Shown: positions 37,585 through 45,228 of the stretch, in pieces
Layout of the letters: each line of letters opens with the position of its first letter
How positions within the stretch are numbered: position 1 is the first letter of the stretch
DNA from: an uncultured Lachnospiraceae bacterium
GTDB taxonomy: Bacteria > Bacillota > Clostridia > Lachnospirales > Lachnospiraceae
NCBI GenBank assembly: GCA_902775485.1
Contig: CACYMJ010000006.1
Coordinates: 1 to 64,000, forward strand
Length of the DNA: 64,000 bases
Direction of reading: 5' to 3'
Notes under the pieces: model-generated
What the model saw: only the letters and a program-made list of their open reading frames with translations
Databases searched by the model: none
Told to the model about the DNA's origin: nothing
Position numbers and translations under genes: made by a program

Positions 37585-39648
37585 ATGACAATATCAGGAA
37601 ATTTTTATGCCGTTACAGGACTCGTAAGTGCGCTTGTGTGTGTGGCGATCCTGATCTGTAACAATACAATATATGATCGTAAAAACGTGATCAGAAGTTA
37701 CTTTTCGTTTCTTCTGACCGTTTTCGTTATGTGTGATATCGTGGACTGCGTGTGGGGATTCATGAATACCAAGACCCTGAATCTCGGCAGGCTCGGATTT
37801 AATATAGTATCATATCTGATACACCTGCTTATCATATTTTCGATCAGCTGCTGGTGTATTTTCCTGACCAATTATTTCGGATTCCACGAGAGCCGTGTGG
37901 CGATGATCTTACAGTGCATACCTCTTGCTGTTGCCATGGGTATATTTGTCACACAGATCATGAACCATACGGTTTTTTATATCGATGACGAATGCAATTA
38001 TTATTCGGGCCCTTACCGTCTGTATCTGTTTGCGATACAGTACGGCTATTATCTCATCACGCTGGCCAAGATCATATATTTCCTTATCAAACATCGGAAG
38101 GAACACTCTTTGCGGTACAGACTGATAGTGTTTGAATGCGCGGTGATACCGGCGTTGTTTGGCATTCTTCAGTACTACAATTCCAATGCACCGTATTCTT
38201 CCATGGGTCTGATGTTTTCAGCGATCATTGTTTTTAACGGCATGATGGTCATAGAAAAGCACAGAAGCTCACGCAATTATGAAGTTATCTCCAAGGAAAT
38301 GTTCATGGGACTGGATGCATTGTCTGACAGTTTTGTGTCTGTGGTACTTATCGATCTTGAAAACAAAACAGATATGCCGATAAAGACAACTCCGCATGTC
38401 GACAGTCTGCAGAGACCGAATATGGACCTGCGCGAGAGGATCATCGTTCCGTTTGTAACGGCTGCGGCCCCCGAGTTTAAGGAAAAACTCGAAGAATTTG
38501 CAGACATAAATACGATGAACGAGCGTATGTTCAACCGCAGAAGCATAACCACCCAGTACCGTTCGGAAGAGATCGGATGGTGTGATCTGACGTTTGTGGC
38601 GGCTGAGCGTGACGAGGCCAGAAATCTTAAAAAGGTTGTCATGGCCATCCGGTCAATAGACGAGAGAAAGCGCAAAGAGCAGGAATACGAAAATGCCCTG
38701 ATACGTGCATACAAAGACGATAATGCCGTGCTTGCCGAACTGATCAAGATGGAATCCACGGGAGTTGTGGCATCGATAGACCGTAAGATCATCATAGTAA
38801 ATGATGCCGCACTTGAAATGTTTAATGCAGTCGGTACCGATCCTATAGGAACGGATGTGCTTGAATTCTGGAACAGTCATAACTGTGTAAAGGTATCGGA
38901 TGAGGTCAAAAAGAGGACTCATGAGATCGAGTCATACGGCGGATACTATTCGTATCAGACAGTCACGTGTCCGGACGATGATGAGGAAAAAATGCGTCAT
39001 CTGCGCGTGGATGTAAAACGTGTGGAACTGCTTGACGGCACTCCGGTCATGCTTACGTGCTTTACGGATATCACAGCCGCAAAGCAGCTTGAGGAAAAGC
39101 TGCGTACCCTGTCCGAGACGGATTCCCTGACGCGAATGGCGAACAGAAGATGCGGCGAATCGCAGATAAAGCTCCTTATGAGAGAAGGAGTATCCGGAAT
39201 ATACGGGCTGTTTGATGTTAACGGTTTCAAGACGATAAACGATACATTCGGACACCAGACCGGAGATGATACACTTGTAGCGGTCGCGAAAGCGGTCAAG
39301 TCCAGCTTCCGAAGTGATGATGTGTTCATGCGCCTCGGAGGTGATGAGTTCGCGATCTACATGAGAGGAGTGGCAACACCGGAACTTGCTCGGATCAGGA
39401 TAGCAAGACTGTTTGAGAACATTGCGAGAATAGAGCTTCCGAACATCCCGAAAGGATCCGTTTCGATCAGCTTCGGTGCGGTTATAGTCGAGGCAGCGGA
39501 CGATGTAACGGATATAGATGCACAGTACCGTGATGTTTACAGACGAGCAGATGCTCAGATGTATAAGTGCAAGGGCAGACCCGGAAGCAACATGTCCATA
39601 GAAGAGCCGAAAAAAACAGAGGAAGGAAGTACAGATGAAGAATCCTAA
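37585..39648 (+). CDS. 7TM-PAS-GGDEF diguanylate cyclase
   Basis: The 687-residue protein starts with about seven membrane helices (to about 220, with a 7TM/histidine-kinase-like sensory pattern), then a linker, a PAS-like domain (about 385-500, VVASIDRKIIIVNDAALEMF) and a GGDEF domain. The active motif GGDEF is intact at 585-589, and an inhibitory I-site RSDD is at 576-579, exactly five residues upstream. It should synthesise cyclic di-GMP with product inhibition. It begins one base after the glycosyltransferase and overlaps the radical SAM gene by 14 bases. Confidence 0.9.
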   Translation: MTISGNFYAVTGLVSALVCVAILICNNTIYDRKNVIRSYFSFLLTVFVMCDIVDCVWGFMNTKTLNLGRLGFNIVSYLIHLLIIFSISCWCIFLTNYFGFHESRVAMILQCIPLAVAMGIFVTQIMNHTVFYIDDECNYYSGPYRLYLFAIQYGYYLITLAKIIYFLIKHRKEHSLRYRLIVFECAVIPALFGILQYYNSNAPYSSMGLMFSAIIVFNGMMVIEKHRSSRNYEVISKEMFMGLDALSDSFVSVVLIDLENKTDMPIKTTPHVDSLQRPNMDLRERIIVPFVTAAAPEFKEKLEEFADINTMNERMFNRRSITTQYRSEEIGWCDLTFVAAERDEARNLKKVVMAIRSIDERKRKEQEYENALIRAYKDDNAVLAELIKMESTGVVASIDRKIIIVNDAALEMFNAVGTDPIGTDVLEFWNSHNCVKVSDEVKKRTHEIESYGGYYSYQTVTCPDDDEEKMRHLRVDVKRVELLDGTPVMLTCFTDITAAKQLEEKLRTLSETDSLTRMANRRCGESQIKLLMREGVSGIYGLFDVNGFKTINDTFGHQTGDDTLVAVAKAVKSSFRSDDVFMRLGGDEFAIYMRGVATPELARIRIARLFENIARIELPNIPKGSVSISFGAVIVEAADDVTDIDAQYRDVYRRADAQMYKCKGRPGSNMSIEEPKKTEEGSTDEES

Positions 39649-41110
39649 AAAAGTGGTGAACTACATCAAGGAGAACTTAAATGAGGTAAAGCATACTACG
39701 CTGAACCCCGAGGGTCCCGGCGTCGTGCGCATCCATATGGTTCCTCCGAAATATGACGGTCCCGAACCTGTCGAGAGCCTGGTCATTTTGAACGGCCAGG
39801 ACATAATTCCGATAGGTGTTTCGTGGGCGGTGCTGTTGTCGATGATGATCGATGCTGTCAATGAATATCACGGACGCCCGATCAATGAAGAGGATACGAA
39901 AAAGATCATCGACAGTACGGTAATCGCAGCCAAAAGCGTGTACAGATTTCTGCCGAAGTTCATCATCAGGAAGGATATCTTCAGGATCATGAACACGTTC
40001 AAGCAGATCGCCTACGGCGAAAAACCGGACGAGGAGATCAGATATATCAATATCGGTGAGTATTCCGATAATATGAGGGCACCCCACAGGATGGATCTGA
40101 TGGTATCCGCGATGAAGAAGGATAATAAGTGGAACTGTAATCAGAACTGTGTTCACTGTTATGCGGCGGGACAGGATCAGTCCGAAGAGAGCGAGCTGTC
40201 CACCGAGCAGTGGAAGGAGATACTTGATAAGTGCAGAAAAGTCTGCATTCCCCAGGTAACATTTACCGGAGGAGAGCCGACGATGAGAGAGGATCTTATC
40301 GAGCTGATCGATCATGCAAGATGGTTTGTCACAAGGCTCAACACAAACGGTATCAAACTGACGAGGGAGTATTGCGATAAGCTGTATGAGGCTTCTCTTG
40401 ACAGCATGCAGATTACTTTCTATTCACATGATGCCGCAGTTCACAACGAACTTGTAGGTGCACCGATGTATGACAAAACGCTTGACGGAATAAAGAATGC
40501 ACTTGCAGCGGGCATCAACATCAGCATCAACACGCCGCTTTGTACGAAGAACAGGGATTACGTTGAGACACTTAAGTTTTTAAAGGACCTCGGTGTCACA
40601 TATGTCACATGCTCGGGCCTGATAACAACGGGTAATGCGGCAAAAGAGACTTCGGAGAGCCTTCAGCTGTCAAAGGATGAGATAAAGGATATACTGCAGC
40701 AGGCCATAGATTTTGCCTATGCAAACGGGATGGAGATCAGCTTTACGTCTCCGGGATGGATAGATGACGAGGAGTTCTTCGAAAAGAACGGTATAGCAAC
40801 CCCGACCTGCGGAGCGTGCCTTTCAAACATGGCTATCACTCCCGGCGGAAATGTTGTTCCTTGCCAGAGCTGGCTTACGGATGCCAATCTAGGAAATTTC
40901 CTTGATGATGACTGGGAAAAGATATGGTACAGCGGTAAATGTGAGAACAGAAGATATTACTCTGCGATGATGACGGGCGCTTGCCCGTTGCAGATAGGAG
41001 GGGCCCGTGATAACGGGAAGAACCTGTCTGCACCGCGAGCCCCCATCGACGAAGTCGATTCAGACGGGCTAGCGACCGACAGTCGGGAAGGAGGTTCATA
41101 TGAAAAATAA
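39635..41110 (+). CDS. Radical SAM protein with SPASM-type C-terminal cysteines (candidate peptide-modifying enzyme)
   Basis: The 491-residue enzyme has the radical SAM cluster motif CNQNCVHCY (Cys168, 172, 175), FTGGEPTMRED just after, and a SPASM-like set of cysteines C-terminally (Cys392, 395, 410, 436, 450) in CGACLSNMAITPGG and VVPCQSW. Residues 1-160 form an extra N-terminal domain without a clear family. SPASM proteins typically carry auxiliary Fe-S clusters and modify ribosomal peptides or proteins, for example by Cys thioether links. The next gene overlaps by 11 bases and encodes a Cys-Ala-repeat protein, the obvious substrate candidate. The last 38 or so residues (from Ile455) are encoded by a dispersed structured repeat and look like an acquired tail. 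The start has GGAAGG upstream. Confidence 0.87.
   Translation: MKNPKKVVNYIKENLNEVKHTTLNPEGPGVVRIHMVPPKYDGPEPVESLVILNGQDIIPIGVSWAVLLSMMIDAVNEYHGRPINEEDTKKIIDSTVIAAKSVYRFLPKFIIRKDIFRIMNTFKQIAYGEKPDEEIRYINIGEYSDNMRAPHRMDLMVSAMKKDNKWNCNQNCVHCYAAGQDQSEESELSTEQWKEILDKCRKVCIPQVTFTGGEPTMREDLIELIDHARWFVTRLNTNGIKLTREYCDKLYEASLDSMQITFYSHDAAVHNELVGAPMYDKTLDGIKNALAAGINISINTPLCTKNRDYVETLKFLKDLGVTYVTCSGLITTGNAAKETSESLQLSKDEIKDILQQAIDFAYANGMEISFTSPGWIDDEEFFEKNGIATPTCGACLSNMAITPGGNVVPCQSWLTDANLGNFLDDDWEKIWYSGKCENRRYYSAMMTGACPLQIGGARDNGKNLSAPRAPIDEVDSDGLATDSREGGSYEK
40990..41082 (+). repeat. Structured dispersed repeat, copy 1 (inside the 3' end of the radical SAM gene)
   Basis: The element runs GCAGATAGGAGGGG, hairpin CCCGT/ACGGG (41004-41008/41013-41017), CTGTCTGCACCGCGAGCCCC, hairpin ATCGAC-GAA-GTCGAT (41045-41059), TCAGAC, GGGCTAGCGAC and GACAG. 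An outer stem CTGTC (41024-41028) pairs with GACAG (41078-41082), and AGCCC with GGGCT. It aligns with copies at 55986 and 60987. Confidence 0.8.
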
Positions 41111-42320
41111 GATCACCGGGTTTATCATAGCCCTCCTTTCATTTGTAATGCTGTTTGCCGTTCCCGTAATGGCGGACACGGACGAGATATTAAACTATAC
41201 GATAATGGTTGATGTCAACGATGATGCGACTCTGCATCTGCAGTACCACATAGACTGGAAGGTACTTGATTCGGGCTCGGGTATCGGGCCGCTGAGCTGG
41301 ATGAAGATCGGTATACCGAACAGCCATGTCAAGGAATACAAAGGTAAAAGCTCAACCGTAGACCACATCAACCGTTCGGGCAACTATCTGGAAGTATATC
41401 TGGATCGTGATTACTACGAGGGAGATGTTGCCAGCGTTGATTTTGAAGTGGTACAGGACTATATGTACCAGGTCGATAAGTTAAAAGAAGGCGAGACCGT
41501 TTACTCATTCACACCCGGATGGTTTGACGACATCAAGGTCGATGAGCTGGTGATCCTGTGGAATAACGATAAAGCGGTTGCGTTCACTCCCGAATGTGAG
41601 ATACAGGACGGATACAATGTCTGGACCGACAGTCTTTCAAGAGGTGAGAAGTTCACGGTGACAATGACCTATCCGAATGATGCTTTCGCATTTGATCTGT
41701 CAAAGAGTCAGGAGGAAGAGTCCGGTGGGAACTTTGGCGACACTTTGGCCGAGATCCTCGGTTCTTTGATGTGCGTGCTGATGACAGGAGGCTTCATTGC
41801 ATTTCCAGTGCTTCTCGGATACCTTGCCAACAGAGGATTTGGCGGCAACAGTCCGACAATCAACAAGACAACGAGAACAAAGATAGTTTACTACGATTCT
41901 TGTCCCGGCTGCGGAGCTCCGAGAAAAGAAGGCGCGAAGTTCTGCGAGTATTGCGGCAAGTCCATGATAAAGAGCGAAGAGACGATCACGGAGGAGCAGC
42001 TGAAGAAGGAAGAGAAGGCTGCGGCGGCATTTACCAAGAACGGGGAATTCAGATACGGTTCAAGTCCGAACACGTTTATCCGTGTCAATTCCGTAAGGGT
42101 TCCGAACCCTCATTACCACAAACCGTCCTCGTCAGGCAGGAGCAGCGGCAGCCATCACTCGTCATGCGCCCACAGTTCATGTGCGTGTGCATGTGCCTGC
42201 GCATGTGCGGGCGGCGGAAGAGCCGGATGTACAACAAAGGATTTCTACAATACCGATCTTAAACTGACAGCCATTGCAAAGGCTACAGGTGTAAAGACCG
42301 TGCCGGAGGAGAAGAAGTGA
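41100..42320 (+). CDS. Membrane protein with zinc ribbon and Cys-Ala-repeat tail (candidate radical SAM substrate)
   Basis: The 406-residue protein has a signal peptide (cleavage likely after Ala25, PVMA/DTDE), an outer beta-rich domain resembling DUF2207-type regions (26 to about 210), one membrane helix (about 218-240) and a predicted cytoplasmic part. That part holds a zinc ribbon C268-X2-C271-X10-C282-X2-C285, then a Ser/His-rich linker and the tail SSCACACACACAGGGRAGC. Cysteines are at 356, 361, 363, 365, 367, 369 and 377. The topology places the tail on the same side as the radical SAM enzyme encoded just upstream. GGAGG (41089-41094 region) precedes the ATG. The function is unknown; a thioether-linked or metal-binding tail is inference. 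Confidence 0.82.
   Translation: MKNKITGFIIALLSFVMLFAVPVMADTDEILNYTIMVDVNDDATLHLQYHIDWKVLDSGSGIGPLSWMKIGIPNSHVKEYKGKSSTVDHINRSGNYLEVYLDRDYYEGDVASVDFEVVQDYMYQVDKLKEGETVYSFTPGWFDDIKVDELVILWNNDKAVAFTPECEIQDGYNVWTDSLSRGEKFTVTMTYPNDAFAFDLSKSQEEESGGNFGDTLAEILGSLMCVLMTGGFIAFPVLLGYLANRGFGGNSPTINKTTRTKIVYYDSCPGCGAPRKEGAKFCEYCGKSMIKSEETITEEQLKKEEKAAAAFTKNGEFRYGSSPNTFIRVNSVRVPNPHYHKPSSSGRSSGSHHSSCAHSSCACACACACAGGGRAGCTTKDFYNTDLKLTAIAKATGVKTVPEEKK
42165..42230 (+). other. Cys-Ala repeat tract in the substrate-candidate gene
   Basis: Codons for C-A-H-S-S then five Cys-Ala pairs and GGGRAGC. Codon choice varies (TGT/TGC; GCG/GCA/GCC), so the repeat is held by selection on protein rather than being a recent DNA slippage product. 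Confidence 0.9.
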
Positions 42321-43237
42321 TCTCTGAGGATATAGGTAAGAAGGCAAAGATCATAGACAACATCATAGAGTCATTCCTTCCGAAGGAGGAAGGTCCTGCC
42401 AAAACGGTCATGGAGGCGATGAACTACAGCATTCACGCGGGCGGCAAGAGGCTGCGTCCTATGCTGATGATGGAGACTTTTCTCATGTTTGCGGGAGAGG
42501 ATCCCGAGAAGGTTCTGTATCCGTTCATGGCAGCCATCGAGATGATACATACGTATTCACTGTGTCATGATGACCTTCCGGCGATGGATAATGACGAGTA
42601 CCGCCGGGGGCAAAAGAGCACTCACGCCATGTTCGGAGAAGCCATGGGGATACTGGCAGGTGATGCGCTTCTTAACTATGCGTTTGAGACTGCGCTTTCT
42701 GCCTTTGATACGACCACGGATGCTAACAGGATGCGGCGCATCGCATATGCTCTTTCGGTACTTGCCAAAAAGGCCGGGATATACGGTATGGTAGGCGGAC
42801 AGGTCGTAGATATTAAGGCCGAAGAAAAGAGTGCCGATGAAGTTACCATGGATACGATAAAGTTTATTCATGAGAACAAAACTGCGGCAATGATAGAATC
42901 CTCATTGATGATAGGAGCGATACTTGCAGGTGCGGATGACGCGGACATCAAAACCCTTGAGAGGATAGGTTCCGATGTGGGTCTTGCATTCCAGATACAG
43001 GACGATATCCTTGATGTTACCGGTGATGAGAAAGCTCTCGGCAAACCCGTGGGGAGCGACGAGGCAAACGGTAAGACCACATATGTTTCGCTGGTCGGAC
43101 TTGAGAAGGCAAAAGAGGATGTGGCAGCCCTGTCATCAAATGCTCTTTCGGAACTGGCGTGCCTTGAGGGGAGCGTGAATGAACACGGTATCTTCCTGAA
43201 GGATCTTATCGCAAGTCTTACATACAGGGACAGATAG
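42317..43237 (+). CDS. ispA: Short-chain polyprenyl diphosphate synthase (farnesyl/geranyl type)
   Basis: The 306-residue trans-prenyltransferase has both aspartate-rich motifs: DDLPAMD (85-91) in YSLCHDDLPAMDND and DDILD (229-233) in FQIQDDILDVTGD. It condenses isopentenyl diphosphate to farnesyl-length chains, precursors of the undecaprenyl carrier. It starts at GTG 42317, overlapping the previous stop codon, so it is part of the same operon. No xseB or dxs is adjacent. The chain length cannot be fixed from sequence here. Confidence 0.93.
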   Translation: MISEDIGKKAKIIDNIIESFLPKEEGPAKTVMEAMNYSIHAGGKRLRPMLMMETFLMFAGEDPEKVLYPFMAAIEMIHTYSLCHDDLPAMDNDEYRRGQKSTHAMFGEAMGILAGDALLNYAFETALSAFDTTTDANRMRRIAYALSVLAKKAGIYGMVGGQVVDIKAEEKSADEVTMDTIKFIHENKTAAMIESSLMIGAILAGADDADIKTLERIGSDVGLAFQIQDDILDVTGDEKALGKPVGSDEANGKTTYVSLVGLEKAKEDVAALSSNALSELACLEGSVNEHGIFLKDLIASLTYRDR

Positions 43238-43241
43238 AATA

Positions 43242-43270
43242 TTGTGAGAATCCCGTAAATATGGTATATT
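43242..43270 (+). promoter_or_regulatory. SigA promoter of the sensor-GGDEF operon
   Basis: TTGTGA (43242-43247) and TATATT (43265-43270) are separated by 17 bases, ahead of the gene at 43318. Confidence 0.6.
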
Positions 43271-43317
43271 GACGATGATCATATGTTAAAAGACCGGGTC
43301 AAAACGAGGTAAAAACC

Positions 43318-45228
43318 ATGGCCAGAAAGATCGCCCTGTTTTCATGCGGATGGGCCTTTGATCTGTTACATGAATATTCAAAAGGAATTGTAAAGCGTTT
43401 GCAGGGAACGGATGTTGACCTGTATATGTTCGTGTGCTATCCGCCTTATGTTGAAAGCGAGACGAAAAAGCTTGGCGAACTGAATATGTTCAATCTTCCC
43501 TATATAGAGGATTTTGACGGAGTAATCATACTTGGCAGCACCATCGATCACGAGGGTGTATATGATTCCATAATCAAAAGGTGCGAGGATGCAAATGTGC
43601 CCGTTGTTACAACGGGAAGAAAATCCGAATACGCATATTTTGTCGGAAGCGATAATTATAACGGTGCCAGGGATCTGTATACCCATCTTCTGGAAAAACA
43701 TGGCGTCAAAAAACCCATGTTTTTTGCAGGTAACGATAACAATTTTGATTCGAACACAAGACTGGATACACTGCGCGAGGTAATGCGCGAACACGGTCTG
43801 TCAACGTCGGATATCGGAGTGTTTTACAGCCAGTGGGAGCCGAAACTGGTTGTTGACTATATCCATGAGAAATTTGAAAACAGAGATAATCCGCTTCCGG
43901 ATGCCTTAATATGTGCAAACGATACACTGGCGATAGCGGTATGTCTTGCTCTTGAAGAGATAGGTTATGAGGTTCCGAGCGATACCATAGTCGTCGGATT
44001 TGATAACGATTATTCGGCAGAGATATATTTTCCTTCCATAACAAGTGTTGACCAGCGTTTTTCCGATCTGGGAGCATATGCCATAAGACTCCTTCTTGAT
44101 GTCATAGACGGTAATAAGCGCAACAGGGAAGTATACATTGCATGTGAGCTTTTTGAGAGTGAAAGCTGTGGATGCAATTGTATGAGAGATCTCGATTATA
44201 TGCGGCGGATGCAGGGTAAGAGCGTTTTCTTCGACCGCATGATGAATACGATATTTGAGAGAAAAGTATCGGCGATCGAGGCAGAGACCATCTCCTGCGT
44301 GACATATGAGGAGTTTAAGACAAACCTTGCCCGGGTGTTCATGAATGATACGACATTCATCGGAAAGACGTTTCATTTGATCTTAGAGCCGAACTTTCAA
44401 AAAGCGCTGTCAGACATTGACGTTAAGTTCCGTACAAAGGGATACAGCCGCCTGATGGATGCGGCATTCAGCCTGGAAAACGGGAAGGTCAGTCAGATCC
44501 CGGAGTTTGAGTCCAGAAAGCTTGTTCCGGTGATCGATCCGTCCAAAAAGAACAGGGTATTTGTGTTTGTGCCGCTGCATGACGGAATGGACAATTACGG
44601 TTATGTCATATTCGGAGATAACGTGGATATAGTCGGAAACGGCAAGCACCTGTTTGAGTTCATATCACGATTTGATATGGTGCTGTCCAAGGTCCGCCAG
44701 AACATAAGCCTCAGGGTACTTAACAAAAAGCTCATAGAGCTTACCGAAACGGATGTTCTGACCAAGGTCAAAAACCGTGCAGCCTATACCGCCAGGGAGG
44801 CGGAACTTAATTCCGTCATCCGTTCGGGTGGACACCGGCCGTTTGCGATAGGACTGTTTGATATCAATAATCTTAAAAAGATCAACGACAGCTACGGTCA
44901 TGAAGCCGGTGACGTTTATATCGTTAACTGCTGTCAGGTACTGTGTAAGATATTCAGAAACAGCCCGGTGTTCCGTATCGGAGGAGATGAGTTTGCCATC
45001 CTGCTTCAGGGAGATGATTACAGGGACAGGGAAGAACTGTATGCGAAGCTTAAAGAGCGCATGAAAGAGATTGACGCTTCTGACCCGGCTCCGGAGGACA
45101 GGGTATCAATAGCCGGAGGCATTGGCATATTTGATAAAGGTAATGATGATAAGGTTGCGGACGTTTTTTCCAGAGCGGATGCAGCCATGTATGAAGATAA
45201 GATTAAGATGAAGGAGAAGAGACAATGA
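43318..45228 (+). CDS. LacI-type ligand-binding domain fused to GGDEF (cytoplasmic diguanylate cyclase)
   Basis: Residues 1 to about 280 match a LacI/periplasmic-binding-protein sensor fold (IALFSCGWAFDLLHEYSKGI, FDGVIILGST, VVGFDNDYSAEIYFPSITSV) but without signal peptide or DNA-binding helix-turn-helix, so it senses inside the cell. A middle domain (about 290-440) follows, then GGDEF at 555-559 (FRIGGDEFAIL). The inhibitory RxxD is absent; the position reads FRNS. The ligand is unknown, perhaps a sugar-like molecule by fold analogy. It overlaps the DHH gene by four bases. Confidence 0.88.
   Translation: MARKIALFSCGWAFDLLHEYSKGIVKRLQGTDVDLYMFVCYPPYVESETKKLGELNMFNLPYIEDFDGVIILGSTIDHEGVYDSIIKRCEDANVPVVTTGRKSEYAYFVGSDNYNGARDLYTHLLEKHGVKKPMFFAGNDNNFDSNTRLDTLREVMREHGLSTSDIGVFYSQWEPKLVVDYIHEKFENRDNPLPDALICANDTLAIAVCLALEEIGYEVPSDTIVVGFDNDYSAEIYFPSITSVDQRFSDLGAYAIRLLLDVIDGNKRNREVYIACELFESESCGCNCMRDLDYMRRMQGKSVFFDRMMNTIFERKVSAIEAETISCVTYEEFKTNLARVFMNDTTFIGKTFHLILEPNFQKALSDIDVKFRTKGYSRLMDAAFSLENGKVSQIPEFESRKLVPVIDPSKKNRVFVFVPLHDGMDNYGYVIFGDNVDIVGNGKHLFEFISRFDMVLSKVRQNISLRVLNKKLIELTETDVLTKVKNRAAYTAREAELNSVIRSGGHRPFAIGLFDINNLKKINDSYGHEAGDVYIVNCCQVLCKIFRNSPVFRIGGDEFAILLQGDDYRDREELYAKLKERMKEIDASDPAPEDRVSIAGGIGIFDKGNDDKVADVFSRADAAMYEDKIKMKEKRQ

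Follow-up and report, generated by a model that had tools for sequence, protein, structure and literature searches.

Among the described systems closest to the one considered here, the ACGX system (NCBIfam TIGR04340) has as its presumed target a short Cys-containing repeat in small repeat peptides, and Gly-rich tails occur in the DUF2207 family of membrane proteins. We are not aware of any DUF2207 member that combines a Cys-Ala tail with a radical SAM (S-adenosylmethionine) partner. The SPASM/Twitch group of radical SAM enzymes is described as varied in its chemistry; the SPASM domain is defined in the same source by a seven-Cys motif (CX9-15GX4C-gap-CX2CX5CX3C-gap-C), and SkfB is presented there as a Twitch-type enzyme with five C-terminal Cys (PMC6231123). 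In this report we describe a pair of adjacent genes, A and B, in a 64,000-nucleotide stretch of DNA from an uncultured Lachnospiraceae bacterium (positions 1 to 64,000 of contig CACYMJ010000006.1, assembly GCA_902775485.1), which is called the window below. Gene A (39635–41110) encodes a radical SAM/Twitch-like enzyme of 491 residues, as judged from its open reading frame (ORF), Pfam and NCBIfam searches, an AlphaFold2 model and fold comparison, and gene B (41100–42320; ORF and model) encodes a membrane protein of 406 residues with a Cys-Ala tail; all features of the two genes lie on the plus strand. A and B occur as a pair across genomes, and they probably form a two-gene protein-modification unit in which A is the maturase, the cytoplasmic Cys-Ala tail of B is the substrate, thioether links are the probable product, and the modified tail is retained.

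Pairing of the Enzyme and the Tail

The two genes overlap by 11 bases (41100–41110), as an earlier note on this DNA had reported. A scan of contigs with B returned 66 loci, of which L068 proved to be a zinc-ribbon-only match and was dropped, and the remaining 65 are probably 64 genes, since a single Spirochaetes MAG (metagenome-assembled genome) seems to have one B gene split over two overlapping contig ends, L025 and L064. Gene A stands immediately upstream of B on the same strand in 63 of the 65 loci (L048 is partial, at a contig edge), and the two loci without a visible A, L025 and L060, begin inside B at the contig end. The spacing in 64 pairs including the window runs from the 11-base overlap, which is the commonest value (17 pairs), to a gap of 102 bases.

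Genomes were surveyed with two profiles, that of the tail having 45 positions (E ≤ 1e-3) and that of the enzyme 462 (E ≤ 1e-60), using the same genome draws for both. Within the family draw the tail was found in 24 of 299 genomes and the enzyme in 24, and these are the identical 24; the class draw gave 5 of 291 for each, again identical. No tail without the enzyme and no enzyme without the tail was present in either draw, so that within these genomes the proposal of the earlier note, a dedicated pair of enzyme and tail with a full-size membrane protein as the likely target, withstood the refuting observation named there, a tail that is widespread without the enzyme. The draws share some genomes and contain 28 distinct positive genomes, in 26 of which tail and enzyme are neighbors on a single contig. 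The exceptions are G873 and G911, where B is interrupted by the end of its contig and the tail match is on a different one. For a phylum draw of 398 genomes the search covered the tail alone, which is no pairing test, and the own genome was the single match. Within the family draw the carriers are scattered, being found in 23 of 298 genera. As labeled in their records, the carriers include Lachnospiraceae, Oscillospiraceae and Coriobacteriaceae/Eggerthellaceae, with one Bacilli and one Spirochaetes MAG; most of them are MAGs, and odd placements such as the Spirochaetes label (L025/L064) may be binning errors.

When the outer domain of B alone is searched (E ≤ 1e-5), 25 of the 299 family genomes match, namely the same 24 and G479. 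The weaker relative in G479 (E 1.2e-22, 281 residues) ends soon after its membrane helix, and neither tail nor enzyme is found with it; it is a single natural control, where an outer domain without the enzyme is also without the tail. A tree of the enzyme comprised 84 rows, 82 of them different, and left out L025, L048, L060 and L064 (no full pair) as well as G873, G911, G420, G586 and G619. B has a zinc ribbon in 69 rows with a GGG tail and in 7 rows with an SSG tail, and has none in 8 rows. Tail subtype and zinc-ribbon presence require 2 changes on this tree, the minimum possible, and 0 of 200 shuffles reach it, in a tree where 23 of 79 inner branches are open and some end branches long, and where near-copies favor such clustering.

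In five loci (L032, L033, L035, L040 and L052) a second B, which is divergently oriented and has a Cys-Ala tail too, lies upstream of A. In G917 (L129:2282-5575) the order is B-B-A rather than A-B, and Tyr replaces a repeat Cys in one of the B tails. Given these five loci and the two B genes per A in G917, a single enzyme may act on more than one tail.

Sequence and Conservation of the Tail

The tail of B in the window reads SSCACACACACAGGGRAGC, and then KDFY. What the earlier note called a (Cys-Ala)5 tail is present as a block at residues 361–370 (42180–42209), but it does not form the extreme C-terminus, since another 36 residues come after it, beginning with GGGRAGC and including the conserved KDFYxTxLKL. 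The conserved core, which is the proposed modification site, covers residues 356–377 (42165–42230), and the KDFYNTDLKL after it, a proposed recognition segment, covers residues 380–389 (42237–42266). All 70 B proteins with the 3′ end present have GGGRAGC after their Cys-Ala (or Cys-Gly) units, five to eight in number; the B of L064 is cut off before this segment. We read 95 tails, of which 93 differ, and the core C[AG]CACA(GG/SS)GR[AV]GC[ST] is found in 92 of the 93, as is K[DE]F[YF] after the core, with K[DE]FYxT in 80. GR[AV]GC and K[DE]F[YF] are conserved about as strongly as the Cys-Ala core, and within the core the Ala and Gly are conserved as strongly as the Cys. Mean identity of 68 full-length B proteins to the window is 96% over residues 361–380, against 52% over all of B.

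The tail core is kept at the protein level and not as a DNA repeat, because synonymous changes in it far exceed residue-changing ones: pairwise comparison of its 17 codons among 70 tails, close relatives included, counts 21,922 synonymous codon differences against 325 that change the residue. The four-unit Cys-Ala DNA pattern occurs at one site in the own genome of 2.3 Mb (two overlapping matches), with 0 control matches. An origin of the tail by chance or as a simple repeat (microsatellite) is ruled out by the single genomic site, the control result and the codon variation.

The most divergent form is that of G911 (L130 and L131), in which a B with a long Gly-rich stretch runs into the contig end, and a tail fragment, CACACACAGGGRVGCS, stands at the end of another contig; the fragment has kept Cys-Ala and GR-x-GC and is without KDFY.

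Architecture and Predicted Topology of the Membrane Protein

B starts with a probable signal peptide (residues 1–25, 41100–41174; hydropathy, with a VMA end before DTDEI), which is followed by a DUF2207-like outer beta domain (residues ~27–200, 41178–41699; Pfam in relatives, model and Foldseek), a membrane helix (residues ~212–247, 41733–41840; model and hydropathy) and a zinc ribbon (C268, C271, C282 and C285; 41901–41954; Pfam). In the model an N-terminal helix is followed by the beta-rich outer domain and a single long helix, after which come a small cytoplasmic part and a tail predicted to be disordered, residues 338–385 being below 50 in pLDDT (predicted local distance difference test). 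By fold (Foldseek), the outer part is weakly like the beta domains of oligosaccharyltransferase subunits and M1 aminopeptidases, with query TM-scores (template modeling scores) of 0.25–0.34. In the window B, Pfam finds nothing but zinc ribbons (Zn_Ribbon_1 at 25 bits, with the cut-off at 25). DUF2207 (PF09972) has weak matches, at E ≤ 1, in 29 of 48 B relatives; the best of them is at 1.1e-4, and the window B is not among the matches listed. Among the NCBIfam models listed for the window B none is at cut-off (best 14.5 versus 117 bits), and the best E for the 48 B proteins is 1.8e-4.

A hydrophobic N-terminus is present in 65 of 68 B proteins and a second hydrophobic segment in 67 of 68. The charge is more positive after the second segment than before it in 62 of the 68, equal in 1 and reversed in 5, four of which are of one clade. 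The tail is predicted on the cytoplasmic side, together with the enzyme, because of this hydropathy and the positive charge after the second segment, in agreement with the placement that the earlier note had proposed. B and its relatives are about 300–490 residues long, which sets the 406-residue B of the window apart from the small precursors by which clusters of RiPPs (ribosomally synthesized and post-translationally modified peptides) are defined.

Domains and Relatives of the Enzyme

A is a member of the radical SAM superfamily (Pfam Radical_SAM, 80.1 bits with a cut-off of 29.5, E 2.8e-22), and its CxxxCxxC (C168, C172 and C175; 40136–40159), the same Cys to which the earlier note had pointed, is expected to be the SAM-cleaving [4Fe-4S] site. 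Cys 168, 172, 175, 303, 326, 392, 410 and 450 are invariant in 48 of 48 homologs, and Cys 247, 395 and 436 are kept in 47. The enzyme had also been called a SPASM enzyme, and Pfam SPASM does match residues 392–440 above cut-off (27 versus 21.5 bits, E 5.6e-6), but the seven-Cys motif is incomplete, because the C-terminal domain has only five conserved Cys (392, 395, 410, 436 and 450, each in 47 or 48 of 48): CX9GX4C is present (C395, G405, C410), followed by just C436 and C450 among the conserved Cys. SPASM/Twitch is the better name. This pattern would fit a single auxiliary cluster, as in Twitch-type enzymes with their truncated SPASM domain, and the auxiliary cluster domain of A (40808–40990; Pfam SPASM and Cys conservation) is accordingly described here as Twitch-like.

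The AlphaFold2 model of A (48 sequences, pLDDT 82, predicted TM-score 0.83) places four strands and three helices before the radical SAM domain. In this N-terminal domain (residues 19–126, 39689–40012; AlphaFold2 secondary structure), strands are followed by three helices, which makes it similar in topology only to a RiPP recognition element (RRE). An RRE is defined by a strand-helix order (PMC12710340), and that order is contained within the domain. PqqD gave no Pfam match in A, and in a search of 21 genomes the PqqD family had 3 matches, spread over 2 of them. The model suggests likeness to an RRE, not membership.

No NCBIfam model is at cut-off for the window A among the best 25 of 67 families, and the best scores are all far below cut-off (NirJ2 105/500, AhbD 102/500 and MoaA 99/325 bits); A falls outside the SkfB family (TIGR04403) with 59.1 versus 300 bits, and the best E of the 48 enzyme members is 1.8e-35, for NirJ2. 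The closest solved folds to the model are SkfB, SuiB, anSME and CteB, then other radical SAM enzymes, and SkfB is the top match of A both by profile (E 6.9e-18) and by fold (E 2.0e-15).

The 3′ end of A, ahead of the start of B, also contains a GC-rich structured stretch (40984–41085) that adds about 35 residues to A. Folded as 136 nucleotides it gives −49.6 kcal/mol (z −3.2, 0 of 200 shuffles). It is present in L010 and L013 among 11 aligned relatives, L006 being masked there; 3 of 34 predicted pairs are changed on both sides, with a covariation term that is not favorable. Rfam gives it a sub-threshold match only, and the own genome has one copy of it.

Neighboring Genes

Neighbor clusters were made from the ORFs of 66 loci, and the 25 largest were considered, with gene names read from the sequence without a family search. 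Within these, A and B are the only genes that recur across the whole set; no third gene is conserved across it as an alternative substrate, and no peptidase-like cluster was recognized. Neither a peptidase nor an exporter recurs beside the maturase, and the window and most loci are without either. In the window, a GGDEF gene (37585–39648) overlaps A by 14 bases, the A-B pair coming directly after it, and a polyprenyl synthase gene and then a gene with a GGDEF-like end (42317–45228) follow, with an overlap of 4 bases between B and the first of these. In 11 close relatives B has the polyprenyl synthase after it, 16 loci have GGDEF-type genes, and 13 have ABC-type (ATP-binding cassette) ATPases at varied positions, among them five loci of one clade. 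A protease or exporter is therefore absent, as first claimed, from the window and from most of the set, but that clade is an exception, where transporter genes could lie near the pair.

Proposed Modification and Alternatives

The sequences strongly imply that the tail of B is the substrate of A, because the tail is near-invariant and linked to the enzyme and because no other candidate substrate travels with the enzyme. A would dock on the tail by means of its RRE-like N-terminal domain, with the conserved GGGRAGC...KDFY segment serving as a follower; RREs may bind leader or follower regions (PMC12710340). It would then abstract hydrogen within the (Cys-Ala)n core and join the Cys sulfurs to neighboring residues, most likely the alpha-carbons of Ala, with 2 Da lost per link. 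The sequences show the pairing, the conservation of the core as protein and the class of the enzyme, and the topology is a prediction; the modification itself, its thioether nature and the role of the tail are what we infer. Thioether formation would be the most economical chemistry, and it is favored because sactisynthases are among the nearest structural relatives of A and because Ala serves as a sactionine acceptor in Trn-beta and ruminococcin C1 (PMC8172795). The modified tail would stay on B, since nothing beside the pair in the window could cut or export it, and the segment would remain cytoplasmic, where cross-linking would make it a stiff element that responds to redox state or metals within a protein for sensing or stress. 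A tail responsive to redox state or stress would suit what is described for S. mutans, in which a DUF2207 protein influences biofilm and the tolerance of acid and peroxide (PMC10457818). More tentatively, the modification may be permanent, so that the (Cys-Ala)n tail of a DUF2207-like protein, multiply cross-linked, acts as a built-in redox or metal sensor or a protein-derived cofactor, and not as an antibiotic, in gut and rumen anaerobes.

Several observations weigh against a thioether-forming, tail-retaining unit. On the curated-family models A scores higher for NirJ2, AhbD and MoaA (105, 102 and 99 bits) than for SkfB (59 bits), each far below cut-off, and a PDB search for an RRE by sequence with the N-terminal domain gave 14 unrelated chains, the best at E 0.21. 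The sequence does not tell the type of bond, since the core hardly varies at its Cys, Ala, Gly or Arg. The co-occurrences are non-independent owing to shared ancestry, and the enzyme threshold of 1e-60 is strict, with up to 5 candidates scored per genome and remote enzyme relatives uncounted. Finally, the clade of L032, L033, L035, L040 and L052 has an ABC-type ATPase and a large permease-like gene downstream of B.

There is a small but real chance that A modifies the tail without a thioether, by epimerization, Cys oxidation, or a carbon-carbon link at Arg374 or at the KDFY aromatics. The varied chemistry of SPASM/Twitch enzymes (PMC6231123) would allow for this, and so would the conservation of GR[AV]GC and K[DE]F[YF] at about the level of the Cys-Ala core. 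We also considered a cyclophane at Tyr-x-Thr, a known type of reaction. It is disfavored here, as it would need the Thr, which is found in 80 of the 93 tails, and as G911 has kept Cys-Ala and GR-x-GC but not KDFY.

It is unlikely that the tail is not a substrate at all and either binds a metal (Zn or an Fe-S cluster) or anchors or regulates A at the membrane, A acting elsewhere. The tail is Cys-rich, near a zinc ribbon and predicted to be disordered, as an unmodified metal-binding tail could be; yet its core Ala and Gly are as conserved as the Cys, architectures without the zinc ribbon retain both tail and enzyme (8 of 84 rows), and no third gene is available across the set as a substrate in the 25 largest neighbor clusters. 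A RiPP pathway in which the modified tail is cleaved and released as a peptide seems very improbable even with an enzyme fold close to RiPP maturases and the ATPase and permease-like genes of the one clade, given the predicted cytoplasmic side of the tail, the lack of a recognized peptidase-like cluster among the 25 largest, and B proteins of several hundred residues with a conserved outer domain.

Comparison with Known Systems

The system had been put forward as undescribed, and within what was searched this stands: no NCBIfam model listed for the window A or B is at cut-off, and the A-B pairing is named in none of the titles and abstracts listed by the searches of open-access literature. A text match of the tail motif in a paper on lamb colon is probably a chance string. 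The type of enzyme is known, and it is the kind of substrate and its retention that would be new. If the proposed modification unit is real, radical SAM peptide maturation would extend from small products and enzyme subunits to the lasting modification of a transmembrane protein, and this compact two-gene system would give a handle on the poorly understood family of DUF2207-like membrane proteins.

The likeness of B to the DUF2207 membrane proteins is a weak one of the outer domain, seen by Pfam in 29 of 48 relatives, and the B of G911 has a long Gly-rich stretch as well. On the side of the enzyme, SkfB, SuiB and CteB share with A a radical SAM core, an N-terminal domain and a C-terminal auxiliary cluster domain, and the seven-Cys SPASM motif is incomplete both in A and in the Twitch enzyme SkfB, but the substrates of these enzymes are small precursor peptides. 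The ACGX system likewise has a radical SAM/SPASM enzyme, from which A is set apart by a score of 56.6 versus 400 bits on TIGR04340. In its outcome the proposed unit would resemble QhpD and QhpC of quinohemoprotein amine dehydrogenase, in which a radical SAM enzyme sets thioethers in a protein that is retained as a subunit (PMC8172795). QhpC differs in being a small enzyme subunit and not a membrane protein, and its links go to Glu and Asp side chains, which the core of the B tail lacks.

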